Positions 27,581 to 43,325 of a stretch of DNA of 64,000 nt are shown one piece after another; the first letter of the stretch is position 1; each line of letters opens with the position of its first letter. The notes beneath the pieces were generated by a model. It saw nothing but the letters and a program-made list of their open reading frames with translations. It was not told the origin of the DNA and made no database searches. Origin of the DNA: Rhizobiaceae bacterium (lineage in GTDB: Bacteria; Pseudomonadota; Alphaproteobacteria; Rhizobiales; Rhizobiaceae); contig JAMLJD010000010.1 in NCBI GenBank assembly GCA_023953775.1, forward strand, positions 1-64,000. The letters run 5' to 3'. Both the position numbers and the translations under genes were made by a program.

Positions 27581-27834
27581 CGTGCCCGGTTCGGGTTTCG
27601 GGTTGCTGCCGCGCGTCGCATTGTCGGCGCCTGCACATGCGCTTGGTGAAAGGTCTTCCGCCTCGTTTGGCGGCGCTGCGTCGGGCCTGCGCCGGGGGTC
27701 GAAGGGTGCCGAGGCCGCTCTAAATTGTTGCGAATCGGGGATTTCCCGTTGACCTCCACCCAATCGCGCCGGACTATCGACGGCGTCGGTCGCACGTGCG
27801 GTTGCCGCAGACTGTCGATGAGGAGAATGCCTGG

Positions 27835-30800
27835 ATGACGCTTCACGACGTCACGCTCGACGACAAATACGACCTCGGCAAGGAACGCCTCTTCATCTCC
27901 GGTGCGCAGGCGATCATCCGGATGCTGATGATGCAGCGCGAGCGCGACCGCCTCGCGGGGCTGCGTACGGCCGGCTTCGTGTCGGGATATCGCGGCTCGC
28001 CGCTCGGCGGCCTCGACCAGCAGCTGTGGCGTGCCCGGCGGCAGCTCGAGAAATCGGACATCGTGTTCCAGCCCGGCCTCAACGAGGAACTTGCCGCCAC
28101 GGCCTGCTGGGGCTCGCAGCAGACCGAGCTTCTCGGCGAAGGCAGGTATGACGGCGTCTTCTCGGTCTGGTACGGCAAGGGTCCGGGCGTCGACCGGTCG
28201 GGCGATGTGTTCCGCCACGCCAATCTCGCCGGCTCATCGAAACATGGCGGCGTGCTGGCGCTGATGGGCGACGACCACACCGCCGAATCCTCCACCAATG
28301 CCCATGCCACCGAATTCGCCTTCGTCGACGCGATGGTGCCGATCTTCAATCCGGCCGGCGTCCAGGAACTGATCGATTACTGCCTCTACGGCTTCGCGCT
28401 GTCGCGTTTCGCGGGAACCTGGGCAGCGATCAAATGCGTCAAGGACAACATCGAATCGACCGCGTCGGTCGACGTGTCGCTTGATCGCCTGAACATCGTC
28501 CTGCCGGAAATCGATCTGCCGCCCGGCGGGCTCAACATTCGCCATGAACTCGACCAGTTCGGCCAGGAACAGCGGCTCCACGACTACAAGCGGGCCGCGG
28601 CGGCTGCATTCATTCGGGCCAACGGTCTCAACAGGATCGTCTACAAGGGTGGCAAGGCTCCGAAGATCGGCATCGCGACCATCGGCAAGAGCTATCTCGA
28701 TGTCCGTCAGGCGCTCGACGATCTCGGCATCGACGAGGCGACGGCGAACCGGCTTGGCGTGCGGCTATTCAAGATCGCCTGTCCGTGGCCGCTCGACTAC
28801 GAACACATCGCCGAATTCGCCAAAGGCCTGGAGACGATCATCGTCGTCGAGGAGAAGCGGTCGCTGATCGAAACGCAGCTTCGCGAGCATCTTTATGCCG
28901 CGCCGTCGCGCCCCGTGATCATCGGCAAGCGCGACGAACGCGGCGAGAAGCTGTTCGCCGCCGGCGGGGCGCTCGACCCCAACGATATCGCCATCGCGCT
29001 CGGTGAACGCGTGCTCAAGGCGGTCGGCCATTCCGACGAGATCGCGGCGCGGGTCAGCCGGCTGCGGCAATTCCAGGCGATGCTGGCCGATACGAAGGAC
29101 GTCGCGACGCGCACGCCCTATTTCTGCTCCGGCTGCCCGCACAACTCGTCGACCAAGGTTCCGGAGGGCTCGATCGCCGGCGGCGGCATCGGCTGTCACT
29201 TCATGGCGATCTGGATGGACCGCAGCACCGTCGGGTTCACCGCGATGGGCGGCGAGGGCGCGCAGTGGATCGGGCAGGCTCCGTTCTCCAAGCGCGAGCA
29301 TATGTTCCAGAACCTCGGCGACGGGACGTACAACCATTCCGGCTCACTGGCGTTGCGCTTCGCGCTCGCGAGCAATGCTAACATCACCTACAAGATCCTC
29401 TACAACGATGCGGTGGCGATGACGGGAGGCCAGCCGCATGAAGGCGGGCTGACCGTCGACATGATTGCCCGCCAGGTGCGCGCGGAAGGTGTCGACCGGA
29501 TCGCGATCGTGACCGACGAACCGGACAAATACGCCGGCAAGGCCGATTTCCCGGCAGGAGCGACGATCCACCATCGCGACGATCTCGACGCGGTGCAGCG
29601 CGAGCTGCGGACAGTCGAGGGTGTTTCCGTGCTGCTCTACGACCAGACCTGCGCGGCCGAGAAACGGCGGCGGCGCAAGCGCGGGACGTTTCCCGATCCG
29701 GACAAGCGCGTGATCATCAACGAGCTGGTCTGCGAGGGCTGCGGCGATTGCGGCGTCAAGTCGAACTGCGTGTCGGTCCAGCCAGTGGAGACCGAATTCG
29801 GCCGCAAGCGCACCATCGACCAGTCGAGCTGCAACAAGGACTTCTCCTGCGTCAACGGCTTCTGCCCGTCCTTCGTCACAGTGCATGGAGCCAAGCTGCG
29901 CAAGGCCGAGGGCAGGGCGGGCAATGCCGATCCGCTGGAAGGCGTACCCGCGCCGAAGCCCTTCGAGCTTACTGGTGCGGGCTGGTCGTCGATCATCGAC
30001 GGCATCGGCGGCACCGGTGTCGTGACCATCGGCGCCGTGCTCGGCATGGCCGCCCATCTCGAGGGCAAGGGCTGCGGCATCATCGACATGGCCGGGCTCG
30101 CCCAGAAGGGCGGGGCGGTGTTCACGCATCTGCGCATCGCGCGCACCCCGGACGACATCCATGCGATCCGCGTCTCGGCGGGCAAGGCGGACCTCGTTCT
30201 CGGCTGCGACCTCGTCGTGTCGGGCACCAAGAAGGTGCTCGCCTCGGTGCGCGAGAACGAGACGCTGTTCGTCGCCAACACGGCGGAGATCATGCCCGGC
30301 GACTTCGCGCGGTCGGCAGACTTCTCGCTGCCGGTCGAGCGGATCAAGCGTGCCGTCCGGGACGCCGCCGGTGAAGACAATGCGCATTTCTTCGATGCCA
30401 CGCGCGCGGCGGCCATTCTGTTCGGCAACTCGCTCGGCGCCAACATGTTCATGCTCGGCTTCGCCTATCAGAAGGGCGGGCTGCCGGTCTCGGCGGAAGC
30501 CGTCGAGAAGGCGATCGACCTCAACGGCCAGGCGGTGGAGATGAATGTCTCGGCGTTCCGCTGGGGGCGCAGGGCAGCCCACGACCCGGCATTCGTTCGA
30601 TCCCTGATGGAAGCCGGCCGCAGTGCGGCGCCGATGCCGCTCGCGCAGACGCTCGACGAGATCGTCGACCGCCGCGCGGCCTTTCTCACCGCCTATCAGA
30701 ATGCGGCTTACGCGCGGCGATATCGCGATGACGTGGAAGCGGTTCGCGCGGCCGAGGCGCGAGCGGTTCCGGGTTCGACCGTCGTGAGCGAGGCCGTGGC

Positions 30801-31311
30801 GCGCAACCTGTTCAAGCTGATGGCCATCAAGGACGAGTACGAGGTCGCGCGGCTCTACACCGACGGCAGTTTCAAGGCCCAGCTGGAGCGCCAGTTCTCG
30901 GACTACCAGACGCTCGAATTCCACCTGGCGCCGCCGATCATGGGACGCCGGGGTCCCGACGGGGTGCCCCGCAAGTCGAGCTTCGGCCCGTGGATGATGA
31001 CCGGGTTCCGGGTTCTTGCGGGGTTGAAGGGGCTTCGCGGGACAGTCCTCGACATATTCGGCTATTCGGCGGAGCGCCGGATGGAACGCGCGCTGCTTGC
31101 CACCTATCGGGGCGATCTCGACCTCATCCGCTCATCGCTGGCGACCGCGACGGTCGATGCCGCCGCGGCGCTCGCGTCCGTTCCGTCGGTCATCAGGGGC
31201 TACGGCTATATCAAGGAGGCCAATGCCGCGAAGGCGAACGCGGAACGCGAACGGCTTCTGGCCAGGCTCGCCGGTGGTTATTCCGAAGACAAGCTCGAGG
31301 CGGCGGAATAA
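27835..31311 (+). CDS. Indolepyruvate:ferredoxin oxidoreductase, fused alpha-beta form
   Basis: An oxidative decarboxylase of aryl-pyruvates (or branched 2-oxoacids) to acyl-CoA, using thiamine diphosphate and ferredoxin. The 1158-residue chain joins IorA and IorB. The N-terminal third is the pyrimidine-binding domain (FISGAQAIIRMLMMQ, TAGFVSGYRGSPLGG). The diphosphate-binding domain has GDGTYNHSGSLA at residue 495 and following. Cys-rich clusters from residue 633 (CEGCGDCGVKSNC, later CVNGFCPSF) bind Fe-S, and the gamma domain has DGIGGTGVVTIGAVLGMAA. The start at 27835 follows GAGGAG at 27820-27825; an in-frame ATG-like start at 27796 lacks a site. Oxygen-tolerant alphaproteobacteria use this fused form for aromatic amino acid breakdown. 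Confidence 0.95.
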   Translation: MTLHDVTLDDKYDLGKERLFISGAQAIIRMLMMQRERDRLAGLRTAGFVSGYRGSPLGGLDQQLWRARRQLEKSDIVFQPGLNEELAATACWGSQQTELLGEGRYDGVFSVWYGKGPGVDRSGDVFRHANLAGSSKHGGVLALMGDDHTAESSTNAHATEFAFVDAMVPIFNPAGVQELIDYCLYGFALSRFAGTWAAIKCVKDNIESTASVDVSLDRLNIVLPEIDLPPGGLNIRHELDQFGQEQRLHDYKRAAAAAFIRANGLNRIVYKGGKAPKIGIATIGKSYLDVRQALDDLGIDEATANRLGVRLFKIACPWPLDYEHIAEFAKGLETIIVVEEKRSLIETQLREHLYAAPSRPVIIGKRDERGEKLFAAGGALDPNDIAIALGERVLKAVGHSDEIAARVSRLRQFQAMLADTKDVATRTPYFCSGCPHNSSTKVPEGSIAGGGIGCHFMAIWMDRSTVGFTAMGGEGAQWIGQAPFSKREHMFQNLGDGTYNHSGSLALRFALASNANITYKILYNDAVAMTGGQPHEGGLTVDMIARQVRAEGVDRIAIVTDEPDKYAGKADFPAGATIHHRDDLDAVQRELRTVEGVSVLLYDQTCAAEKRRRRKRGTFPDPDKRVIINELVCEGCGDCGVKSNCVSVQPVETEFGRKRTIDQSSCNKDFSCVNGFCPSFVTVHGAKLRKAEGRAGNADPLEGVPAPKPFELTGAGWSSIIDGIGGTGVVTIGAVLGMAAHLEGKGCGIIDMAGLAQKGGAVFTHLRIARTPDDIHAIRVSAGKADLVLGCDLVVSGTKKVLASVRENETLFVANTAEIMPGDFARSADFSLPVERIKRAVRDAAGEDNAHFFDATRAAAILFGNSLGANMFMLGFAYQKGGLPVSAEAVEKAIDLNGQAVEMNVSAFRWGRRAAHDPAFVRSLMEAGRSAAPMPLAQTLDEIVDRRAAFLTAYQNAAYARRYRDDVEAVRAAEARAVPGSTVVSEAVARNLFKLMAIKDEYEVARLYTDGSFKAQLERQFSDYQTLEFHLAPPIMGRRGPDGVPRKSSFGPWMMTGFRVLAGLKGLRGTVLDIFGYSAERRMERALLATYRGDLDLIRSSLATATVDAAAALASVPSVIRGYGYIKEANAAKANAERERLLARLAGGYSEDKLEAAE

Positions 31312-31342: not shown

Positions 31343-31429
31343 TCAGGCGCACTCCACACATATCCCGGATATATAAGCTTTTTTTAATGCTGTTATGCGA
31401 AGGATGGTCGCCTAATCCGGGTTCGACTA

Positions 31430-33760
31430 GTGGTCAACAACAAAAGCAGAGATCCCGACGACATCTATGTGGGCTTTGTCCGGTCGTTGTTTAACGAACC
31501 CGGCATCCTGCTCATAGGTGCCTTCGTACATTTTCTGATCGGCCTGCTTGTCTATCACCATTCGCAGGACACGATATACATCGTGCTTGCCTTCGGGATG
31601 CTGGTGGGTGGTCTTTACCGCTACCAGATCATCAAGCGCGGCAAGGTCGCCAGGATCGACGACATCGAAACCGCCCGCCAATGGGAGCGGCTCTATCTGA
31701 TCGGAGGCACGATTCAGGGCTTCGTCGCGGGGCTCTTCGCGTTCGTAAGCCTCTACTGGTCGCCTGACATATTCGGCGAGATCGCCGCCGTTTCGGTGCT
31801 GATGGGCTCGACGGTGACGATCGCCGGCCGGAATTACGGGTCGCGCGCGATGGTGACGATCCTGACGATCTCGGTCGTCGCGCCGATCGCGGTCGGCCTG
31901 ATGCTCAAGGGCGACGTCCACCACATCGTGCTCGGGCTCTACATCATCCCGTTCATGGTGGTGATCACCAAGGTCGCCAGCCAGGTTCGCAGCGTCCTGT
32001 TCACCGCGATCAGTGAGCAGAAGAAGGCGACGCGGCTGGCGCAACGGTTCAATCGCGCCCTCAACACCATGTCGCACGGCCTGGTCATGCTGAGCCCGGA
32101 GGGACGCGTGGTGGTCGCCAATTCGGAAGCCGCGCAGCTCATGCGCGTGAAAAATGGCGACAAGCTGCTCGGCCGTTCGCTGAGGGCTGTGCTCATGCGC
32201 GGCGTGGCTGGCGGGCTTTTGAGCCAGAAGGACGCCCGCTTCGCCGAGAGCCAGCTCACCCGCGCTCTGCGCGAAGGTCGCGACCGCAAGCTGCTTCTGC
32301 GGTTTTCCAACGGCCGACATTTCGAGTTTTCCGCGCGCGAGGGTCACGACGACCTCGGCGTGATCATCTTCGAAGACGTCACGCAGCGGGTGGCGGCGGA
32401 AGAGAAGATCCGCTTCATGGCGCGCTACGACAATCTGACAGGCTTGCCGAACCGCGCCTATTTCCACGAGTCGGTAGGCGAGGCGATGGGGGCAGGCGAC
32501 CGCAATCGGTATTGCGGCATCGCCGTCTTCGATCTGGACGATTTCAAGAGCGTCAACGACACGCTCGGCCATCCGGTGGGAGACGGCCTGATCTACGCGG
32601 TTGCCGAAAAGCTGGCTGTGTTCGCCTCCGACGACGTCAAGGTCAGCCGGTTCGGCGGCGACGAGTTCATGCTCTACTTCGACCATGTCGCCGACCGCGC
32701 CGAGTTCGGAACGATGCTTGACGACATCTTCGCTTCGGTGCTGGGCGACGTCGACGTGGCAGGCCACTCACTGCGTGTGCAGGTGAGCGCCGGCGCCGTG
32801 TTCCAGCGCGTCCAGGATACCGACGTCGACGAGATGATCGTCAAGGCCGACCTGGCGCTCTACAAGGCGAAGGAGCAGGGCAAGAACGGCTGGTGCCTGT
32901 TCGAGCAGGTGATGGACGCGGCGTTCCGCAACCGCCAGGTGATGAAGGCCGACCTGCGCAATGCGATCGAGACGAAGTCCCTTCGGGTGGTCTATCAGCC
33001 GATCGTGGCGATGGAGACGATGCGCATCGCAAGCTGCGAAGCGCTGTGCCGCTGGGATCATCCGGAGATGGGACCGATCTCGCCGGCTGTCTTCATTCCG
33101 CTGGCCGAGGAAATGGGCATCATCGCGCAGATCAGCGAGTTCGTCCTCGGCGCGGCCTGCCGGGAATGCATGAACTGGCCCGATCAGATCAGCGTGTCGG
33201 TCAACCTTTCGGCGAAGGACTTCCGCGACCGTGACATCGTCGACAAGGTGCGCGCCGCGCTTGCTGAATCCGGGCTTGCTCCGCATCGCCTTGAAATCGA
33301 AGTTACCGAAACAGCGCTGCTCGACGACAAGTCTTCGACGCGCCAGTATCTCGAGGAACTCAAGGCACTCGGGGTCGGCATCGCGCTCGACGATTTCGGC
33401 ACCGGATATTCGAGCCTCAGCTATCTTCACACGCTGCCGCTCGACAAGGTGAAGATCGACCGCAGCTTCCTGATGGACGTGACGCGCAGCGACCGTTCGC
33501 TCGAACTGCTCAAGGGCATCGTCAACCTGTCGCGGCCGCTCGGCCTTGCCGTGACGATCGAGGGGGTCGAAACGTTCGACCAGCTCAAGATCCTTGAACA
33601 TATCGTCAAGCCGGATCTCGTCCAGGGCTTCCTGTTCGGCTCGGCATTGACCCCCTCCGGCATCCAGACGATGTCGAACACGGTCTGGCCGTTCGCGGCC
33701 GAAGCCGAGGAGACGGGGCAGACGCCGGCAGCCGCGCTGGTCGCCCGCGCCGGACACTGA
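31430..33760 (+). CDS. Membrane GGDEF-EAL protein (cyclic di-GMP turnover) with PAS domain
   Basis: A 776-residue signalling protein that makes or breaks cyclic di-GMP. The first 190 residues hold about five to six membrane helices (for example GILLIGAFVHFLIGLLVYH). A PAS domain follows (ALNTMSHGLVMLSPEGRVV). The diguanylate cyclase domain has an intact GGDEF at residues 409-413 in SRFGGDEFMLYF. The phosphodiesterase domain has EAL at 537-539 (SCEALCRWDHP), plus NLSAKDF, DDFGTGYSSLSYL and KIDRSF, so both sites look active. The start is GTG at 31430. It precedes the FeeM-like and Crp/Fnr genes, which suggests a local signalling block, but it has its own upstream region. Confidence 0.95.
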   Translation: MVNNKSRDPDDIYVGFVRSLFNEPGILLIGAFVHFLIGLLVYHHSQDTIYIVLAFGMLVGGLYRYQIIKRGKVARIDDIETARQWERLYLIGGTIQGFVAGLFAFVSLYWSPDIFGEIAAVSVLMGSTVTIAGRNYGSRAMVTILTISVVAPIAVGLMLKGDVHHIVLGLYIIPFMVVITKVASQVRSVLFTAISEQKKATRLAQRFNRALNTMSHGLVMLSPEGRVVVANSEAAQLMRVKNGDKLLGRSLRAVLMRGVAGGLLSQKDARFAESQLTRALREGRDRKLLLRFSNGRHFEFSAREGHDDLGVIIFEDVTQRVAAEEKIRFMARYDNLTGLPNRAYFHESVGEAMGAGDRNRYCGIAVFDLDDFKSVNDTLGHPVGDGLIYAVAEKLAVFASDDVKVSRFGGDEFMLYFDHVADRAEFGTMLDDIFASVLGDVDVAGHSLRVQVSAGAVFQRVQDTDVDEMIVKADLALYKAKEQGKNGWCLFEQVMDAAFRNRQVMKADLRNAIETKSLRVVYQPIVAMETMRIASCEALCRWDHPEMGPISPAVFIPLAEEMGIIAQISEFVLGAACRECMNWPDQISVSVNLSAKDFRDRDIVDKVRAALAESGLAPHRLEIEVTETALLDDKSSTRQYLEELKALGVGIALDDFGTGYSSLSYLHTLPLDKVKIDRSFLMDVTRSDRSLELLKGIVNLSRPLGLAVTIEGVETFDQLKILEHIVKPDLVQGFLFGSALTPSGIQTMSNTVWPFAAEAEETGQTPAAALVARAGH

Positions 33761-33877
33761 GCTTCATACAACTTCGAAGATGCCTGTATTCGCCCTCTAC
33801 TCCGGCTTTTCATGCCGGCGGCGATGTTAAGGTTAACGATACGTAAATCGGATCGAATCGATTTTCGCCTTTACTCG

Positions 33878-33893
33878 TACCGGCGTTCCGGTA
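33878..33893. promoter_or_regulatory. Inverted repeat upstream of the FeeM-like gene
   Basis: TACCGG-CGTT-CCGGTA is a perfect six-base inverted repeat 44 bases before the ATG at 33937, where an activator or repressor site would be expected. The neighbouring Crp/Fnr protein is one candidate binder, but the repeat does not match the TGTGA or TTGAT consensus. Confidence 0.4.
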
Positions 33894-33936
33894 GGCTTTC
33901 CGTGCGGCGGTAAGAGTTAAGGTACGGGGAGTTTCC

Positions 33937-34719
33937 ATGGCTGACGAACCAGTGACGCTGCGTGCGGCGACCCATCCGCCGGCGACAGCCGCGGTCGAGC
34001 CGATTTCCGGATTCGCGCGCAATGTCTCCAGGCTGCTCGAGACCATCGAGTATCGCCGCTGCGAGTCCGGCGAAGATCTCGAGGCGATCTACCAGCTCCG
34101 CTACAAGGCGTATCGCCTCTACGGCTTCGTTCCGAGGCTGGCGAACCGCATGGTTTCGGACGAGCTGGACGATGCGGTGAACTGCTACCGCTACGGCGTC
34201 TTCATCGACAACCGGCTGGTCAGCACGCTGCGGCTGCACCACATCACGCCGCAGGAGCCGTTCGGCCCCGTGATGACGGTGTTCGACGACATCCTCGGCC
34301 CGCGGCTCGACAGGGGCGAGACGTTCGTCAATCCCAGCCAGTTCGCCGCCGATCCGGAATGGACGAACGTCCATCGCACGCTGCCTTACGTGACGTTGCG
34401 CCTCGCGGTGATGTCGAACGAGTATTTCAAGTCGACGAGCTGCGTTTGCATGATTCGCGACGAGCATACGGCGTTCTATCGGCGCATCTTCGGCTCGGAG
34501 CAGGTCGGGGCGGCACGCGTCTATCAGCCTATCTCTGTGCCGCTGATGCTGTTCGATTCCGACTGCGCGACAAACCTCGCCAGGACGATCGAACGGTTCC
34601 CCTTCTTCAAGTCGACACCGCTCGAACAGCGCATGATGTTCGCGCGGCCGCCGCGCGGCGAGCTTTCGCCGCTCACCGTGCTGCCGACGGCCAAGTACCT
34701 GCTCGACACCGCCGCCTGA
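33937..34719 (+). CDS. FeeM-like N-acyl amino acid synthase / acyl-homoserine-lactone-synthase-fold protein
   Basis: A 260-residue protein of the GNAT-related fold shared by LuxI-type autoinducer synthases and N-acyl amino acid synthases (FeeM). Conserved features are the N-terminal EAIYQLRYKAYRLYGFVP (compare the R-x-x-x-F/Y-x-x-x-G entry of LuxI), VFIDNRLVSTLRLHHI (acyl-ACP side), FVNPSQFAADPEW and LPYVTLRLAVMSNEYFKST, and the acceptor-side CVCMIRDEHTAFYRRIFG. FeeM-type enzymes join an acyl chain from acyl carrier protein to an amino acid such as tyrosine. The actual product here is unknown. It lies 102 bases before a Crp/Fnr regulator on the same strand. The family call is from pattern, not a search. 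Confidence 0.72.
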   Translation: MADEPVTLRAATHPPATAAVEPISGFARNVSRLLETIEYRRCESGEDLEAIYQLRYKAYRLYGFVPRLANRMVSDELDDAVNCYRYGVFIDNRLVSTLRLHHITPQEPFGPVMTVFDDILGPRLDRGETFVNPSQFAADPEWTNVHRTLPYVTLRLAVMSNEYFKSTSCVCMIRDEHTAFYRRIFGSEQVGAARVYQPISVPLMLFDSDCATNLARTIERFPFFKSTPLEQRMMFARPPRGELSPLTVLPTAKYLLDTAA

Positions 34720-34821
34720 CCTGCGGCATTTGTAGGCGGCAGATCGCCTTGTCATTTCACCGTGCCGTGTCCATAACCGGCTGAAGCGGACCGATATCGT
34801 CCGCGCAGGTCAAGGAATGGA

Positions 34822-35496
34822 ATGAACGCACGCGAAGATCTGGTCCGTACCGCGATCTGGGCCGAGGAACTGGCGCCCGACGAAATCGAGCGGGCGCGCA
34901 GGGGGATCAGCGAGCGGCAGTTCGCCAAAGGCGCCTATATCTGCCATCGCGGCGACAGGCTCGACTGCTGGACGGGCGTCATAACCGGCCTCGTCAAGGT
35001 CAGCACGATCTCGCGCTCGGGAAAGGCGATGACCTTCGCGGGCGTCGGCCCCGGAAGCTGGTTCGGCGAGGGGTCCGTGCTCAAGGACGAGCCGCGCAAA
35101 TACGATCTCGTCACGCTGCGCGAAACCCGTCTTGCCATGCTGTCGCGCCCGACCTTCATGTGGCTGTTCGAGAACAGCACCGGTTTCAACCGGTTCCTGG
35201 TGCGCCAGCTCAACGAGCGGATCGCCCAGTTCATCTCGACCGTCGAATATGACCGTATCCTGCATCCCAAGGCGCGGGTTGCGCGCAGCCTGGCCTGGTT
35301 CTTCAACCCGATGCTCTATCCCGTCCGCAGGACGGAGATCGAGATCACGCAGGAAGAGCTCGCGCTGCTCGCCGGCCTGTCGCGGCCTGTGACGAGCAAG
35401 AGCCTGCGGGAACTCGAGGAGGAGGGGCTCCTGAGCGTCGAACACGGCCTGATCCGGGTGATCGACGCCAATGCGCTGAGCAATTACGAGGTCTGA
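34822..35496 (+). CDS. Crp/Fnr-family transcriptional regulator
   Basis: A 224-residue regulator with an N-terminal cyclic-nucleotide-binding-like beta barrel (about residues 15-125; GDRLDCWTGVITGLVKVSTI, GPGSWFGEGSVL) and a C-terminal winged helix (about 150-220; EITQEELALLAGLSRPVTSKSLRELEEEGLLSVEHGLIRV). The FNR [4Fe-4S] Cys set is absent, so it is not an oxygen sensor of the FNR kind; the residues that bind cAMP in Crp are only partly kept. It probably senses another small ligand. A GGAATG context precedes the ATG. It is the last gene of the 31.4-35.5 kb signalling block. Confidence 0.92.
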   Translation: MNAREDLVRTAIWAEELAPDEIERARRGISERQFAKGAYICHRGDRLDCWTGVITGLVKVSTISRSGKAMTFAGVGPGSWFGEGSVLKDEPRKYDLVTLRETRLAMLSRPTFMWLFENSTGFNRFLVRQLNERIAQFISTVEYDRILHPKARVARSLAWFFNPMLYPVRRTEIEITQEELALLAGLSRPVTSKSLRELEEEGLLSVEHGLIRVIDANALSNYEV

Positions 35497-35513
35497 GCGG
35501 CGCGCCGAGGCAA

Positions 35514-35601
35514 CAAAAAAGCCGGTTCCACGAGATGTGGCCGGCCGCGCATGCTACTCTACAGGCCCAGCTTAATGGCAACCGGGGCTCATGTCTGTCA
35601 A
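35514..35601 (-). ncRNA. Candidate small RNA with promoter and rho-independent terminator
   Basis: Read on the minus strand, the gap between the Crp and acyl-CoA synthetase genes holds TTGACA (35601-35596), then 18 bases, then CATTAA (35577-35572) as a weak -10 box, a short body, and a stem GCCGG-CCAC / GTGG-aa-CCGGC (35545-35521) followed at once by six T (35520-35515). That is promoter, body and terminator for a transcript of about 50 bases, with no gene on that strand. The plus strand has no T-run after the stem, so the terminator faces the other way from the flanking genes. No expression evidence is available. Confidence 0.4.
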
Positions 35602-35713
35602 GCGCATTGTTGCCTCTAGTGCGGATTCGTGGAAACTTTCCCCCGACCCAGAATGATCCCGAATCCGGGACGCGGGTTTTCCGCGGCGCGTGGTGGCGCA
35701 GCGGTGGGAGGAA

Positions 35714-37696
35714 ATGAGTTTGGCAGAAGCACTGGCTGCCGCCGATACGTTCCCGAAGTATCTCCTGCTCAATGCGGAGCGCTTCGGCAATCGGCCGGCG
35801 ATGCGTCACAAGGATTACGGCATCTGGCAGAGCTGGACCTGGAAGGAACAGCTTGAAGAGGTGCGCGCGTTCGCGATCGGGCTCCAGTCGATTGGCGTGG
35901 CGCGCGGCGACCGTATCGCGGTGATCGGGTCGAACCGGCCGCGCCTGTACTGGAGCTTCGCGGCGATCCAGTCGATAGGCGGCGTGCCCGTCCCGGTCTA
36001 TTCGGACTCTGTGGCGGAGGAAATGTCCTACGTGCTCGACCACGCGGAGGTGCGCTTCGCGATCGTCGAAGACCAGGAGCAGGTCGACAAGGTCCTGTCG
36101 ATTTCGGACGCGGTTCCGTCATTGCAGCAGATCGTCTATGACGAGCCGCGCGGCCTGCGCGATTACGACCACACGCATCTGCACGCCTATTCGGCGCTGC
36201 GGGCGATCGGCGAGGCGAAACTGTCCGAAGGCCCCGATACCGATCGCGCCTGGCGCCGCGAAATAGATGCGGGCACGGGGTCCGACCTTGGCATCATGCT
36301 CTACACGTCGGGCACGACCGGGCGTCCCAAGGGCGTGATGCTATCGAACGACAATCTGGTCAAATCGGCGCTTCACGGCAATGTCTTCGACAACCTGACC
36401 GAGAACGAGACGACCATCGCCTATCTGCCGCTGGCCTGGGTCGGCGACCACGTGTTCTCGTTCTCCCAATCATATACCGCCGGCTTCTGCGTCGCATGTC
36501 CGGAGAGCGCGGAAACGATCAACGAGGATCGGCGCGAGATCGCGCCGACCTACTTCTTCGCGCCGCCGCGGGTGTTCGAGACGCTGCTGACCCAGATCAT
36601 GGTGCGCATGCAGGACGCTGGCCCGACCAAGCAGCGGATGTTCCACTATTTTCTCAAACACGCCGAAAAGGTCGGCGAGCGGATTCTCGGAGGCGAAAGC
36701 GTTCCGCTTTTCGACCGGCTCAAATACTGGGTTGGCGAGTTCCTGGTCTACGGACCGCTGAAGAACCGCCTCGGCCTGTCCAAGCTGCGGGTCGGATATA
36801 CGGCCGGCGAGGCGATCGGACCCGAGCTGTTCCGGTTCTACCGCTCCCTCGGCCTCAATCTGAAGCAGCTCTACGGCCAGACCGAAGCGTGCGTCTATAT
36901 CACCGCGCAACCTGACGGAAAGATCCAGGCCGACACGGTCGGCGTGCCGTCGCCGGGCGTCGAGGTGAAGATCGCCGACAATGGCGAGGTGCTGTACCGG
37001 TCGGACGGCGTATTCCTCGGCTACTACAAGAATGAGGAAGCTACGCGCGAGACCAAGACGGCAGATGGGTGGGTCCATACCGGGGACGCGGGCTTCTTCA
37101 ACGCTGACGGGCATCTCAAGATCATCGACCGTGCCAAGGATGTCGGCAAGCTGGCCAATGGCGCGCTTTTCGCGCCCAAATATGTCGAGAACACGCTCAA
37201 ATTCTTCCCGGACATCAAGGAAGCGGTGGCGTTCGGCCACGGTCGCGAATTCTGCGCCGCCTTCATCAATATCGATCTGGACTCGGTCGGCAACTGGGCC
37301 GAGCGCAACAATATCGCCTATGCCTCCTATCAGGAGCTCGCCGGCCATCCGGAGGTTTACAAGACGATCCTCGACCATGTGAACGAGGGGAACCGGCGGC
37401 TGGCGCGTGAGCCGCTGATGGCGGGATCGCAGATCCGGCGATTCCTGGTGCTGCACAAGGAACTGGACGCCGACGACGGCGAACTCACGCGCACGCAGAA
37501 GGTGCGCCGCGGGTTCATCGCCGAACGCTATGGCGAGCTGATCGAAGCGCTCTACAATGGCGCCACCGAGCAGTATGTCGAGACGGAAGTCACCTACGAG
37601 GATGGACGCAAGGGCCGGATCAAGGCGACGGTCCGCATCGTCGACGCCGAGGTGCAGGAAGCGCCCGTCGAGATGCTGCAGGAGGCGGCGGAATGA
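35714..37696 (+). CDS. Long-chain-type acyl-CoA synthetase (AMP-forming) of the liv cluster
   Basis: A 660-residue AMP-forming ligase that activates a carboxylic acid with ATP and CoA. The P-loop-like YTSGTTGRPKG lies at residues 197-207, with later motifs YGQTEACVYIT and the hinge GWVHTGDAGFFNADGHLKIIDR. The size and LPLAWVGDHVF region are of the long-chain acyl-CoA synthetase (FAA1-like) class. GGGAGG at 35706-35711 is very close to the ATG at 35714; a TTG six bases on or a GTG at 35690 could serve instead. Its stop overlaps the livG start (ATGA at 37693-37696), so it is translationally coupled to a branched-chain-type ABC importer. This suggests the imported compound is a carboxylic acid to be activated. 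Confidence 0.94.
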   Translation: MSLAEALAAADTFPKYLLLNAERFGNRPAMRHKDYGIWQSWTWKEQLEEVRAFAIGLQSIGVARGDRIAVIGSNRPRLYWSFAAIQSIGGVPVPVYSDSVAEEMSYVLDHAEVRFAIVEDQEQVDKVLSISDAVPSLQQIVYDEPRGLRDYDHTHLHAYSALRAIGEAKLSEGPDTDRAWRREIDAGTGSDLGIMLYTSGTTGRPKGVMLSNDNLVKSALHGNVFDNLTENETTIAYLPLAWVGDHVFSFSQSYTAGFCVACPESAETINEDRREIAPTYFFAPPRVFETLLTQIMVRMQDAGPTKQRMFHYFLKHAEKVGERILGGESVPLFDRLKYWVGEFLVYGPLKNRLGLSKLRVGYTAGEAIGPELFRFYRSLGLNLKQLYGQTEACVYITAQPDGKIQADTVGVPSPGVEVKIADNGEVLYRSDGVFLGYYKNEEATRETKTADGWVHTGDAGFFNADGHLKIIDRAKDVGKLANGALFAPKYVENTLKFFPDIKEAVAFGHGREFCAAFINIDLDSVGNWAERNNIAYASYQELAGHPEVYKTILDHVNEGNRRLAREPLMAGSQIRRFLVLHKELDADDGELTRTQKVRRGFIAERYGELIEALYNGATEQYVETEVTYEDGRKGRIKATVRIVDAEVQEAPVEMLQEAAE

Positions 37697-38520
37697 ACCA
37701 GCGGCCCGAATCGACCCAGTTCCGCCACGACGACGGCGCCAGTCCCGCCCCGGGCGACCTGCTGCTCGACGTCCGCAACGTTTCGCTCGCCTTCGGCGGC
37801 GTGAAGGCCATCACCGACATCTCTTTCGACGTTCGCGAAGGGGAGATCCGCGCCATCATCGGTCCCAACGGCGCCGGCAAGACGTCGATGCTGAACGTCA
37901 TCAACGGCTTCTACACGCCGCAGGAGGGCACGATCGTGTTCCGCGGCAAGGAGCGCCGGTCGATGCGGCCTCATGAGGCGGTCGGGCAAGGCATCGCGCG
38001 GACATTCCAGAACGTCGCCCTGTTCAAGGGCATGTCGACGCTGGACAACATCATGGCCGGGCGCTCGGTCAAGATGAAGCGCAATATCGGCTGGCAGATG
38101 CTGTGGCATGGCCCGGCCATCCGCGAGGAAATCGAACACCGCCAGGTCGTCGAGGAGATCATCGATTTCCTCGAGATCCAGCACATCCGCCGGACGCCCG
38201 TGGGCAAGCTGCCGTACGGCCTGCAGAAGCGCGTCGAGCTCGGCCGCGCGCTGGCGATGGAGCCGAGCCTCTTGCTGCTGGACGAGCCGATGGCGGGCAT
38301 GAACCTCGAGGAAAAGGAAGACATGAGCCGGTTCATCATCGATGTGAACCAGCAGCGGGGCACGACCATCGCGCTGATCGAGCACGACATGGGCGTGGTC
38401 ATGGACCTGTCGGACCGCGTCGTCGTCCTCGACTATGGCAAGAAGATCGCTGACGGGACGCCTGACGTGGTGAAGTCGGACCAGGCGGTCATAGACGCCT
38501 ATCTGGGTGTTGCGCACTAA
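37693..38520 (+). CDS. livG: ABC transporter ATP-binding protein LivG
   Basis: First ATPase of a hydrophobic-amino-acid-type importer, 275 residues. Walker A is GPNGAGKTS from residue 57, the signature is LPYGLQKRVELGRALA, and Walker B is LLLLDEPMAGMN. The LivG-specific C-terminal segment (ALIEHDMGVVMDLSDRVVVLDYGKKIADG and a tail with DAYLGVAH) is present. The ATG overlaps the stop of the acyl-CoA synthetase gene. Together with livHMKF it makes a full importer whose substrate need not be an amino acid. Confidence 0.94.
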   Translation: MNQRPESTQFRHDDGASPAPGDLLLDVRNVSLAFGGVKAITDISFDVREGEIRAIIGPNGAGKTSMLNVINGFYTPQEGTIVFRGKERRSMRPHEAVGQGIARTFQNVALFKGMSTLDNIMAGRSVKMKRNIGWQMLWHGPAIREEIEHRQVVEEIIDFLEIQHIRRTPVGKLPYGLQKRVELGRALAMEPSLLLLDEPMAGMNLEEKEDMSRFIIDVNQQRGTTIALIEHDMGVVMDLSDRVVVLDYGKKIADGTPDVVKSDQAVIDAYLGVAH

Positions 38521-38538
38521 CGACTGAAGGAAGTCGAC

Positions 38539-38688
38539 ATGGACCTTTCAACTTTGCCGCTTTCGCCGCTTATCGCGCTGGTCGCCGGCGTGCTGATCCT
38601 CGTGGCGCCGCGGCTGTTGAACTACATCGTCGCACTCTATCTCATCATCATCGGCCTGGTCGGGTTGTTTCCCGGCCTGGCTGGCTGA
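38539..38688 (+). CDS. DUF3096-type small membrane protein
   Basis: A 49-residue protein, MDLSTLPLSPLIALVAG at its start, consisting of two hydrophobic helices around a short turn (LILVAPRLLNYIVALYL, IIGLVGLF). It matches the DUF3096 pattern of short membrane proteins with a conserved PRLLNYIVA phrase. GAAGGAAG at 38525-38532 is a suitable ribosome site before the ATG at 38539. It lies inside the liv gene cluster, between livG and livH, so it is probably co-expressed; a role in the transporter is possible but not shown. Confidence 0.8.
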   Translation: MDLSTLPLSPLIALVAGVLILVAPRLLNYIVALYLIIIGLVGLFPGLAG

Positions 38689-38745
38689 CGGCACGCGCCG
38701 CAAAGGCGGGCCGCACGGCGGACGAACCGGGGGGAAGTCGGGAAG

Positions 38746-39705
38746 ATGGAACTGTTGAACTCAATCTTGGTGAAGCCGTTCGCCGACATGATCGCTGCGC
38801 CGGACTTCCTGCTGCAGGTGCTTTGGGAAGGAACCGTGTCCGGCGTGCTCTACGCGCTGATCGCACTCGGCTTCGTCCTGATCTTCAAATCGTCGCGCAT
38901 CTTCAACTTCGCCCAGGGCATCATGGTGGTCTTCGCCGCGCTGACCCTGGTCGGGCTGCACCAGAACGGCGTGCCGGCTCTGCTCGCCGTGCCGCTGACG
39001 CTGGTCGTGATGTATGTGCTGGCCTATGGCATCGAGCGCGTCGTGCTCAGGCCGCTGGTCAACCAGCCTGACATCATCCTGTTCATGGCGACGATCGGCA
39101 TCACGCTGTTCCTCATCGGTTTCGGCGAGCTGATCTTCGGCGGCGAGAACAAGCGGATGATCACCGAAGAGCTGATGATCCCGACCGGAAGCTTCGAGTT
39201 CGAGCCGTTCGGCGGCTTCGTGCTGATGGAACAGAAGGACATCGTCGCGGTCGGTGGCGCCATCCTCCTCGTCGTCGCCCTGCTCATCTTCCTCAACAAG
39301 TCGAAGATGGGCCGCGCCATCCGCGCGCTCGGCGACGACCACCAGGCGGCGCTGTCGGTCGGCATCTCGCTGTCGACGATCTGGGTTCTGGTCTGGTTCA
39401 TCGCCGGCGTCATCGCGCTGGTGACGGGCATCGCCTGGGGCGCCCGCGCCGGCGTGTCCTTCGCGCTCGAGGTCATCGCCTACAAGGCTCTTCCCGTGCT
39501 GATGCTCGGCGGCCTGGAATCGGTGTCCGGCGCCATCATCGGCGGGCTGGCGATCGGCATTCTCGAAAAGCTGTTCGAGATCTACTGGGGCCAACCGCTG
39601 CTCGGCGGCAATACCGAGACCTGGTTCGCCTACGTGCTGGCGCTGACGGTGCTGCTGTTCAGGCCGCAGGGCCTGTTCGGCGAAAAGATCATCGAGCGGG
39701 TGTAA
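38746..39705 (+). CDS. livH: Branched-chain-type ABC transporter permease LivH
   Basis: A 319-residue inner-membrane permease with about eight to nine helices. The LivH hallmark GTVSGVLYALIALGFVLIFKSSRIFNFAQG starts at about residue 29, and GRAIRALGDDHQAALSVGIS is the cytoplasmic coupling loop. The end LTVLLFRPQGLFGEK is also typical. The ATG at 38746 follows GGGGGAAG. Its stop is four bases before livM. It makes the translocation pore with LivM. Confidence 0.94.
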   Translation: MELLNSILVKPFADMIAAPDFLLQVLWEGTVSGVLYALIALGFVLIFKSSRIFNFAQGIMVVFAALTLVGLHQNGVPALLAVPLTLVVMYVLAYGIERVVLRPLVNQPDIILFMATIGITLFLIGFGELIFGGENKRMITEELMIPTGSFEFEPFGGFVLMEQKDIVAVGGAILLVVALLIFLNKSKMGRAIRALGDDHQAALSVGISLSTIWVLVWFIAGVIALVTGIAWGARAGVSFALEVIAYKALPVLMLGGLESVSGAIIGGLAIGILEKLFEIYWGQPLLGGNTETWFAYVLALTVLLFRPQGLFGEKIIERV

Positions 39706-39709
39706 TCAG

Positions 39710-40786
39710 ATGTTCTATCGCACGGCCGGTCAGTTCAAGACCGACTATCAGTCCGATTTCGCCCTGTTCCCGGTGCGCCAGGATGCGTGGCTTCTGGCCT
39801 TCATCCTTCTGCTCGCCTTCGTCGTGTTCCCGATGACGGCCGACGAGTTCACCTTCCGCGCCCTGCTCATCCCGGTGCTGATCTATTCGCTCGCGGCGCT
39901 CGGCCTCAACATCCTGACCGGATTTGCCGGGCAGCTTTCGCTGGGGACCGGCGCCTTCATGGGCGTCGGCGCCTATGCCTGCTACAAGCTGGTCACGATC
40001 TTTCCGGAGATAAACCTCATCGTCGCGATCGCGCTGTCGGGCTTCTTCTCCGCGACCGTCGGCATGGCCTTCGGCCTGCCGTCGCTCAGGATCAAGGGCT
40101 TCTATCTCGCCATCGCCACGCTGGCGGCGCAGTTCTTCCTGGTGTGGCTGTTCCAGAAATGGGCCTGGCTCTACAACTACTCGACATCGGGCGCGATCCA
40201 GGTGCCGAACATCGACATGTTCGGCATCACCATCGCCGGCCCGAATGCCAAGGCGATCACGCAATACTATGTGGTGCTGTGCGTCGTCGCGGTGGTCACC
40301 TATCTGGCGATCAACATCACACGCGGGCGCATCGGCCGGATCTGGAAGTCGATCCGTGACATGGACATCGCTGCGGAGCTGGTCGGCATCAACCTGATGA
40401 AGGCCAAGCTGCTCGCCTTCTTCGTGTCGTCCTACATCGTCGGCGTGGCGGGCGCGCTGTTCGTGTTCCTGTGGCGCGGCGCGGCGGAGGCGAACCTGTT
40501 CGACATCCCGCTGTCGTTCCGCGTCCTGTTCATCGCCATCATCGGCGGGTTGGGCTCGATCATGGGCAACTTCCTCGGGGCGATCCTGATCGTCGCGCTG
40601 CCGGTGCTGCTCAACACGGTGCCGCATCTGTTCGGGCTGTCGATCAGCTCATCGGCGGTGGAACATCTCAACGTGATGATCATCGGCGCGCTGATCATCA
40701 CCTTCCTGATCCTGGAGCCGCACGGGCTCGCGCGCTACTGGCAGGTAATCCGGGAAAAGCTGATCATCTGGCCTTTCCCGCACTAA
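39710..40786 (+). CDS. livM: Branched-chain-type ABC transporter permease LivM
   Basis: A 358-residue permease with about ten helices. LYSLAALGLNILTGFAGQLSLG-type sequence (IYSLAALGLNILTGFAGQLS from about residue 61) is the LivM signature, the coupling loop is GRIGRIWKSIRDMDIAAELV, and the end is LEPHGLARYWQ. It carries an N-terminal extension of about 35 residues before the first helix. The gene follows livH by four bases. Confidence 0.94.
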   Translation: MFYRTAGQFKTDYQSDFALFPVRQDAWLLAFILLLAFVVFPMTADEFTFRALLIPVLIYSLAALGLNILTGFAGQLSLGTGAFMGVGAYACYKLVTIFPEINLIVAIALSGFFSATVGMAFGLPSLRIKGFYLAIATLAAQFFLVWLFQKWAWLYNYSTSGAIQVPNIDMFGITIAGPNAKAITQYYVVLCVVAVVTYLAINITRGRIGRIWKSIRDMDIAAELVGINLMKAKLLAFFVSSYIVGVAGALFVFLWRGAAEANLFDIPLSFRVLFIAIIGGLGSIMGNFLGAILIVALPVLLNTVPHLFGLSISSSAVEHLNVMIIGALIITFLILEPHGLARYWQVIREKLIIWPFPH

Positions 40787-40876
40787 GTTGAAAGTATCGG
40801 CCCGGGCCGGGCCGCGAAAAACGGGGTTGGTTCGCCCGATCCAGACTGGAGAAACGGACAACCGGAGGAGACGAGA

Positions 40877-42193
40877 ATGAGAAAACTGATAAGAGCAGCA
40901 ATCCTGTCGAGCGCGGTCGCGGTCGCCGGCATTGCGTCGTCCGCGGCGCTGGCCGAGGACTCGATCACGCTGTCGAACCTGTCCTACCGGACGGGTCCGT
41001 TTGCCGCCACCGGCATCCCGCTGATGAACGGCCAGCGCGACTACATCATGATGCTCAACGACCGCGACGGCGGCGTGAACGGCGTCAAGCTCAACTACGA
41101 GGAATGCGAGACCGGCTACAGCACCGAGAAGGGCGTCGAGTGCTACGAGGCGACGAAGGGCGAGAGCATCGTCACGCAGCCCTGGTCGACCGGCATCACG
41201 CTGCAGGTCCTGCCGAAGTCGAATGTCGACAAGATCCCGATCCTGGCCCCCGGCTACGGCTTCTCGGCGATGCAGGACGGCAAGACCTTCCAGTGGGCGT
41301 TCAACCCGCCGGCTTCCTACTGGGACGGCGCGTCGATGATCCTGTCGAACATCTCCGACGGCAATCTCGATGGCCTCAAGGGCAAGAAGATCGCCTTCCT
41401 GCACCTCGACCATCCCTACGGCAAGGAGCCGATCCCGCTGTTCGAGCAGATGGCCGCCAAGCACGGCTTCACCTTCCTGCCGATCCCGGTCGGCCTGACC
41501 GAGATGCAGAACCAGTCGGCGCAGTGGCTGCAGATCCGCCGCGAGCGTCCCGATTACGTGATCATGTGGGGCTGGGGCGCCATGAATGCCGGCGCCATCA
41601 CCGAGGCCGTCAAGACCAACTATCCGATGGACCAGTTCATCGGCATCTGGTGGTCGTCGCTCGACGGTGACCTGAAGCTGGTCGGCGACAAGGGCAAGGG
41701 CTACCGCGCCATTTCGTGGAGCCTGCCGAATTCCGAAGCGCCGGTGATGCAGGACATCAAGAAGCACGTCGTCGACGCGGGCAAGTCGCTCATCAACCAG
41801 GGCGAGGGCGAATTCGACTGGGTGTTCTACCAGCGCGGCGTGATGATCTCGATGATGCTGGTCGAAGGCGTAAAGGCCGCGCAGGAGCATTTCGACGCCA
41901 AGGTGATCAACGCCGAACAGCTTCGCTGGGGTCTGGAGAACCTGAACATCGACGAGGCCAAGCTCGAGGCGCTGGGAATGTCGGGCATGATCCCGCCCTT
42001 CTCGACCTCGTGCTCCGACCACACCGGCCATTCCGGTGCGTGGATGCTGCAGTGGAACGGCTCCAAGTTCGAGCAGGCATCCGACCTGCTGACCGCCGAC
42101 CGCGAGGCGATCGACGCGCTGGCCAAGGACGGCGCTGCGAAGTACGCCGAGGCGAACGCGCCCTGGCCGGTCAACGAAGAGTGCAAGATGTAG
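40877..42193 (+). CDS. livK: ABC transporter substrate-binding protein (LivK type)
   Basis: A 438-residue periplasmic binding protein with a Sec signal peptide (about residues 1-26, ending SSAALAED). It belongs to the large Leu/Ile/Val-binding-like fold: SNLSYRTGPFAATGIPLMNG, RDYIMMLNDRDGGVNG and the Cys pair in EECETGYSTEKGVECYEATK. These longer proteins with the extra Cys loop differ from E. coli LivK and usually go with a nearby acyl-CoA synthetase. The ATG follows GGAGGAGA at 40864-40871. The gene is followed by a strong stem-loop before livF. Confidence 0.93.
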   Translation: MRKLIRAAILSSAVAVAGIASSAALAEDSITLSNLSYRTGPFAATGIPLMNGQRDYIMMLNDRDGGVNGVKLNYEECETGYSTEKGVECYEATKGESIVTQPWSTGITLQVLPKSNVDKIPILAPGYGFSAMQDGKTFQWAFNPPASYWDGASMILSNISDGNLDGLKGKKIAFLHLDHPYGKEPIPLFEQMAAKHGFTFLPIPVGLTEMQNQSAQWLQIRRERPDYVIMWGWGAMNAGAITEAVKTNYPMDQFIGIWWSSLDGDLKLVGDKGKGYRAISWSLPNSEAPVMQDIKKHVVDAGKSLINQGEGEFDWVFYQRGVMISMMLVEGVKAAQEHFDAKVINAEQLRWGLENLNIDEAKLEALGMSGMIPPFSTSCSDHTGHSGAWMLQWNGSKFEQASDLLTADREAIDALAKDGAAKYAEANAPWPVNEECKM

Positions 42194-42203
42194 CACCCCG
42201 GTT

Positions 42204-42231
42204 CCGGCCCTCCCCCTGCGGGGAGGGCCGG
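42204..42231 (+). terminator. Strong stem-loop between livK and livF
   Basis: CCGGCCCTCCCC (42204-42215) pairs perfectly with GGGGAGGGCCGG (42220-42231) around CTGC, 10 bases after the livK stop. No T-run follows. It probably limits read-through or stabilises the livK message so that the binding protein is in excess. Confidence 0.6.
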
Positions 42232-42362
42232 TCCCTGTTCCAGAACCGGGCGGCGCGGCGAGCTTCCATCGACCGCCGCCCGCTTCCTAGACGGGCCGCC
42301 GAGGCCATCCCATGCCGTCCCTGCTACACGCAGGGAGAGACGACAACGCCGCCGGAGACACC

Positions 42363-43199
42363 ATGACGACCGCACCCGCACCCAGTGCCGACACGGCGAG
42401 CCCGATCCTCGAAGTCAACAATATCGAGGTCATCTACGACCATGTGATCCTGGTGCTCAAAGGTGTGTCGCTGTCGGTGCCGCGGGGCGGTATCACCGCC
42501 CTTCTGGGCGCCAACGGGGCGGGCAAGACGACGACGCTCAAGGCGATCTCGAACCTGCTTCATGCCGAACGCGGCGAAGTCACCAAGGGCAACATCCAGT
42601 TCGACGGCGAGGAAGTGCAATCGCTGTCGCCGAACGATCTCGTGCGCCGCGGCTGCATCCAGGTCATGGAGGGCCGCCACTGCTTCAGCCATCTGAGCGT
42701 GGAGGACAATCTCCTGTCCGGCGCCTTCACGCGCCGCGACGGCGCTTCCGCGATCCGCGACGATCTCGAGCTCGTCTACAGCTATTTCCCGCGGCTCAAG
42801 GTGCGGCGCAACAGCCAGGCCGGCTACACGTCCGGCGGCGAGCAGCAGATGACCGCGATCGGCCGCGCGCTGATGTCGCGACCGAAGATGATCCTGCTCG
42901 ACGAACCGTCGATGGGGCTCGCGCCGCAGCTCGTCGAGGAGATCTTCGAGATCGTGAAGAAGCTCAACGAGGAGCAGGAGGTGTCGTTCCTGCTCGCCGA
43001 GCAGAACACCAATGTCGCGCTGCGCTATGCGAAATACGGCTACATCCTGGAATCGGGCCGCATCGTGCTTGACGGCGAGGCCGCGTCCCTGCGCGAGAAC
43101 GAGGACGTCAAGGAATTCTATCTCGGCGTGGCGGGAGACGGGCGTCGTTCGTTCAAGGACGTCAAGCACTACAAGCGCCGCAAGCGCTGGCTCGCCTGA
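42363..43199 (+). CDS. livF: ABC transporter ATP-binding protein LivF
   Basis: Second ATPase of the importer, 278 residues. Walker A is GANGAGKTTT from residue 49, the signature region is TSGGEQQMTAIGRALM, Walker B is MILLDEPSMGLAPQ and the LivF ending LAEQNTNVALRYAKYGYILESGRI is clear. GGAGA at 42354-42358 sets the ATG at 42363 over an upstream in-frame start at 42312. The C-terminal tail (KDVKHYKRRKRWLA) is a basic extension beyond the core. It closes the liv gene set. Confidence 0.94.
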   Translation: MTTAPAPSADTASPILEVNNIEVIYDHVILVLKGVSLSVPRGGITALLGANGAGKTTTLKAISNLLHAERGEVTKGNIQFDGEEVQSLSPNDLVRRGCIQVMEGRHCFSHLSVEDNLLSGAFTRRDGASAIRDDLELVYSYFPRLKVRRNSQAGYTSGGEQQMTAIGRALMSRPKMILLDEPSMGLAPQLVEEIFEIVKKLNEEQEVSFLLAEQNTNVALRYAKYGYILESGRIVLDGEAASLRENEDVKEFYLGVAGDGRRSFKDVKHYKRRKRWLA

Positions 43200-43325
43200 T
43201 CCCGGGCACGCGGTGCCCGGCACGCCCGGAGGCGTCGCGGACGCGTTTCCGCGACAATTCCCGCCATTGCCCTTGAGCCGCCTTTTCGCTATCAGCGCAT
43301 TGAATACTTCCGAGGGGAAATTGCG

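Follow-up and report, generated by a model that had tools for sequence, protein, structure and literature searches.

In Burkholderia and Cronobacter, the RpfF/RpfR system comprises the BDSF synthase RpfF and the PAS-GGDEF-EAL receptor RpfR, the two genes being convergent and the receptor binding the fatty-acid signal (PMC6361424). In Nitrospira, the AHL synthase gene of NspI/NspR1 lies beside a GGDEF/EAL gene, and a LuxR regulator together with a shared lux box drives the divergent genes (PMC8553950). The locus analysed here lies on contig G000:C2 in a genome of 4.2 Mb, for which Mesorhizobium and Aquibium are the nearest named relatives at this site; it likewise holds a gene for a proposed fatty-acyl signal synthase that adjoins a gene for a PAS-GGDEF-EAL protein with intact EAL motifs. 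Unlike RpfF, which has a crotonase fold, this synthase has a LuxI/FeeM fold, and unlike RpfR with its soluble FI domain, the partner begins with a domain of six predicted transmembrane helices (6-TM domain); moreover, the genes here usually lie in tandem and carry a CtrA-type promoter. We regard the pair as one that works like RpfF/RpfR; it is not a member of the RpfF/RpfR family, since its synthase has a different fold and its GGDEF-EAL protein a different N-terminal domain. From the Nitrospira arrangement it differs in having no LuxR, the GGDEF-EAL protein itself being the proposed receptor. Our main reading, to which we assign a probability of about 0.6, is that the synthase and the GGDEF-EAL protein form a two-gene signal/receptor system resembling RpfF/RpfR but built on a LuxI-fold synthase. 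The literature search, which left most subscription journals and preprints outside, yielded loose parallels only and no earlier description of the pair.

Within the window (the whole stretch of 64,000 nucleotides that was analysed), an indolepyruvate oxidoreductase gene (27796-31311) is followed on the forward strand by genes for the 6TM-PAS-GGDEF-EAL protein of 776 residues (31430-33760), assigned from its Pfam domains and synteny, for the FeeM-like N-acyl synthase of LuxI/GNAT fold (33937-34719) and for a Crp/Fnr regulator (34822-35496), and then by genes for an acyl-CoA ligase and a Liv-type ABC transporter, the transporter gene names being taken from the ORF sequences. The interval named in the preliminary description opens at 33878, which holds as the start of an inverted repeat and not as that of the synthase gene. 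Its reading of the 260-residue product as a protein with the fold of LuxI-type and N-acyl amino acid synthases was borne out. The protein matched the Pfam FeeM family PF21926 over residues 50-207 (E=2.6e-42; score 144.7 bits, cut-off 27), while a Pfam search gave no match to the LuxI family PF00765 at E values up to 1. An AlphaFold (AF2) model with a pLDDT of 92 had chains of 2g0b (FeeM) as its top Foldseek matches (E=8e-11, TM (target) 0.81), and the AHL synthases EsaI, TofI, LasI and BjaI appeared, among others, further down the list. A PDB search with the synthase sequence alone gave no match and one with its profile gave weak LuxI matches only, so that the fold was settled by structure prediction; similarly, a single-protein search of the genome contigs found no homologue of the synthase, whereas a profile of close homologues did find them. 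Because it matches PF21926 and its model agrees best with the solved FeeM structure 2g0b, the synthase is classed as a predicted FeeM/LuxI-fold acyltransferase. Alignment of 28 homologues revealed 13 invariant residues, among them R55, D75, D78 and R99, which pair with the Arg/Asp core of EsaI in a weak profile match (E=0.019). The protein shares the fold of the LuxI AHL synthases and differs from them in the missing PF00765 match and in having no adjoining LuxR partner; from 2g0b, to which it has about 15% identity in the structural alignment, it differs also in its constant pairing with a c-di-GMP enzyme. A canonical LuxI-type synthase is encoded separately in the same genome (G000:C31:40832-41224), with a crotonase-like match (E=5e-15) close by.

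The c-di-GMP enzyme that the preliminary description had placed before the synthase, giving it no role, is encoded there and is the constant partner of the synthase, proposed here as its receptor and as a c-di-GMP phosphodiesterase. Its gene encodes, all on the forward strand, the N-terminal 6-TM domain (31430-32044), a PAS domain of the PAS_7 type between the membrane domain and GGDEF (32060-32404), a GGDEF domain with the motif GGDEF at residues 409-413 (32420-32887) and an EAL domain with the signature motifs EAL, DDFGTG, KID and EGVE (32948-33640). All 24 aligned partner proteins have intact EAL motifs, and 21 of them an intact GGDEF motif. The 6-TM domain, for which searches of Pfam and the PDB returned neither a family nor a match, carries the invariant residues G30, R64, E86, G101, R134, N135 and R187, of which the R134-N135 pair and E86 are the most striking in the alignment. 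Several genomes also encode shorter proteins, of about 380-460 aa, with weaker matches to this domain.

The synthase and the GGDEF-EAL protein form a conserved pair. In 27 of the 28 family-wide loci the GGDEF-EAL gene lies directly upstream of the synthase gene on the same strand, with a gap of 107-308 nt, and in the remaining one a single gene is inserted between them. Among 61 relatives, 29 carry both the 6-TM domain and the synthase at strong E-values and 32 carry neither (Fisher p about 5e-18, kinship ignored). An order-wide sample of 150 genomes contained 17 with a synthase of this FeeM subfamily, drawn from six families, and in all 17 the 6-TM domain is encoded on the same strand, starting about 2.5 kb upstream of the synthase. 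Two of the 80 named loci end just upstream of the synthase; the partner adjoins it in 74 of the 78 with enough flank. In the other four genomes the partner lies elsewhere, in each case still behind the indolepyruvate oxidoreductase gene, and the synthase has moved together with its CtrA-type promoter box, which precedes the relocated genes as well. A plasmid of Rhizobium tumorigenes carries the two genes side by side in convergent orientation. The partner is thus retained both after separation and after inversion, which favours a functional pair over passive linkage, and since the synthase is kept with a c-di-GMP membrane enzyme throughout the rhizobial order, a signalling system is probable. 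In two further genomes (G036, locus L075, 8844-12548; G515, locus L208, 6447-10164) distant FeeM-like genes, with E values of about 1e-21 to 1e-26, precede GGDEF-EAL genes that lack the 6-TM domain, and the association of FeeM with c-di-GMP may be wider than this FeeM subfamily.

Twelve relatives of the partner have no FeeM gene nearby. Seven of these sister receptors, belonging to five families, are accompanied by a crotonase gene, which lies 15-171 nt from the 3' end of the receptor gene and is convergent with it in five of the seven, as in RpfF/RpfR; in the other five, neither a FeeM nor a crotonase synthase was found nearby. Searched against solved structures, the crotonases matched 3m6m, 6dgn, 5fus and 7zq7 (RpfF proteins and one close crotonase relative) with E values of 3e-55 to 9e-53, other crotonases reaching about 1e-15, and their two Glu positions (GGGxE, GxPE) align with those of RpfF. 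Their scores of 163-236 bits against the NCBIfam RpfF model lie under its cut-off of 550, and RpfF-like is therefore the proper name. Beyond the order, most crotonases of this kind are found apart from GGDEF-EAL genes. On the receptor tree the FeeM label changes 2 times and the crotonase label 2 times, compared with means of 11.1 and 6.8 after shuffling; the tree was rooted by midpoint only and so does not give the direction of the synthase swap. The best pointer to the FeeM product as ligand of the receptor is the presence of a second, unrelated fold of acyl-signal synthase beside the same receptor family. Taken further, a family of membrane c-di-GMP receptors may have swapped its synthase between the RpfF crotonase and LuxI/FeeM folds, the LuxI-fold enzyme acting directly on c-di-GMP through the 6-TM receptor in a system widespread among rhizobia, without LuxR and under CtrA control; we see the chances of this fuller account as evenly balanced.

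The synthase gene has a promoter of its own. The sequence GTTAAGGTTAACGATACGTAAA (33826-33847, forward strand) contains the core TTAACGATACGTAAA at 33833-33847, which agrees at 7/8 positions with the CtrA box consensus TTAA-N7-TTAA (PMC9437464) and recurs before the homologues, where the common element GTTAASSTTAAC-N4-SGTAAA fits the same box. A weaker CtrA-like site, also 7/8, lies upstream of the GGDEF-EAL gene (31373-31387, forward strand). With up to one mismatch the pattern occurs four times in the 64 kb, two of the occurrences being those upstream of the synthase and GGDEF-EAL genes. For the CtrA-like box of the window alone (7/8) the shuffle p-value is 0.12, and the case rests on enrichment at the family level: a box of at least 7/8 was present in 24/28 FeeM promoters and 15/22 GGDEF-EAL promoters as compared with 6/83 GC-matched intergenic controls (p=7e-15 and p=1e-8, respectively), and upstream of FeeM in 69/70 named loci. 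Binding of CtrA to the synthase promoter is thus suggested by sequence.

In the mechanism that we propose, the synthase would attach a fatty acyl group to an amine substrate, probably an amino acid, and so form a small acyl signal that the 6-TM domain, the PAS module or both could sense in the partner. Sensing would alter the c-di-GMP phosphodiesterase activity of the partner, possibly also a cyclase activity, and the message would reach c-di-GMP directly, without a regulator of the LuxR type, while the CtrA-type box of the synthase promoter would tie signal production to the cell-cycle and motility programme. The conserved pairing would also be compatible with regulation of the enzyme by c-di-GMP, or with a membrane lipid whose synthesis c-di-GMP controls.

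The preliminary description had seen a compact signalling unit that does not follow the LuxI/LuxR scheme, which is supported, and had counted the Crp/Fnr regulator as its possible receptor, which is not: the partner is the c-di-GMP enzyme. The regulator itself was described correctly, with cNMP_binding (1.4e-19) and HTH_Crp_2 (5.7e-12) domains and no N-terminal cluster of FNR cysteines, and so was the perfect repeat TACCGG-CGTT-CCGGTA, which we located at 33878-33893, with 43 nt between it and the ATG. That the synthase product is received by this regulator acting at the repeat is highly improbable, although the Crp/Fnr gene adjoins the synthase gene in the window and in 10/28 family-wide loci; thus, of a conserved three-gene order, the step from GGDEF-EAL to the synthase held and the step to Crp/Fnr did not. 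As many as 18/28 synthase loci have no Crp gene, and Crp lies beside the acyl-CoA ligase/ABC cassette whether or not a synthase is present. Crp orthologues are present in 13/61 relatives and lie next to the ligase gene in 12 of the 13 Crp loci, an opposite-strand ORF intervening in the last, and three Crp loci (L044, L045 and L046, in genomes G035, G049 and G059) have the ligase cassette and no synthase. The Crp gene is hence the first gene of the ligase/transporter cassette and lies outside the pair, which in some genera happens to sit between the indolepyruvate oxidoreductase gene and this cassette, and on synteny, by the linkage criterion that the preliminary description had itself set, we reject the Crp/Fnr regulator as the receptor, a role that probably belongs to the membrane c-di-GMP enzyme. 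The repeat TACCGG-N4-CCGGTA itself occurs in 0/70 named homologous promoters, where its best match reaches 9/12 positions, and 22/27 homologous intergenic regions contain a perfect repeat of one kind or another whose arms measure 6 or more. Because it is not conserved, the repeat was ruled out as an operator and excluded from the proposed unit. The Crp/Fnr-led cassette of ligase and Liv-type transporter genes (34822-43200) is conserved in 13 relatives, whether the FeeM pair is present or not, and in some of them adjoins the indolepyruvate oxidoreductase gene; the Crp protein may regulate it.

Two other explanations keep the pair and dispense with a signal between its members. The product of FeeM is N-acyl tyrosine, and GNAT-fold enzymes related to FeeM make aminolipids; the synthase could therefore make an N-acyl amino acid that serves as a membrane aminolipid or biosurfactant, while the GGDEF-EAL protein, a predicted membrane protein, senses the state of the membrane or controls production, with no signal passing between cells. 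We consider this unlikely, given that the sister receptors pair with RpfF-like crotonases, which by homology would make free fatty-acid signals and not lipids, and that, among called genes of at least 90 aa, part of them annotated, none that recurs beside the pair was recognised as an aminolipid gene. Mere co-regulation of both genes by CtrA-type boxes in a programme of motility or attachment, with no relation of ligand and receptor, agrees with the enrichment of CtrA-like boxes before both, yet would need neither the strict match in presence and absence nor a gene order kept over several families, the retention of the partner after separation or the swap of the synthase, and appears to us an improbable account, more doubtful than that of the aminolipid.

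The proposed signal/receptor system, if true, would mean that LuxI-fold synthases can act directly on c-di-GMP signalling and that the combination of synthase and receptor is modular; the pair offers a concrete candidate receptor for products of the FeeM type. It is carried by many Hyphomicrobiales, including Mesorhizobium, Nitratireductor, Aminobacter and Shinella, and would therefore represent a common and unnoticed route of chemical signalling in soil and plant-associated bacteria. Several further FeeM-like genes were observed. One FeeM homologue (locus L180, G070:C1:2512182-2512868) contains a single TGA in frame within the matched region and lies beside an intact partner gene; it is possibly a decayed copy. 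On a Sulfitobacter plasmid (L171) and a Loktanella plasmid (L172), FeeM-like acyltransferase genes adjoin methyltransferase genes, that of Loktanella being of the isoprenylcysteine type and the Sulfitobacter locus holding in addition a HAMP histidine kinase gene, and both loci are candidates for the synthesis of N-acyl amino acid methyl esters.
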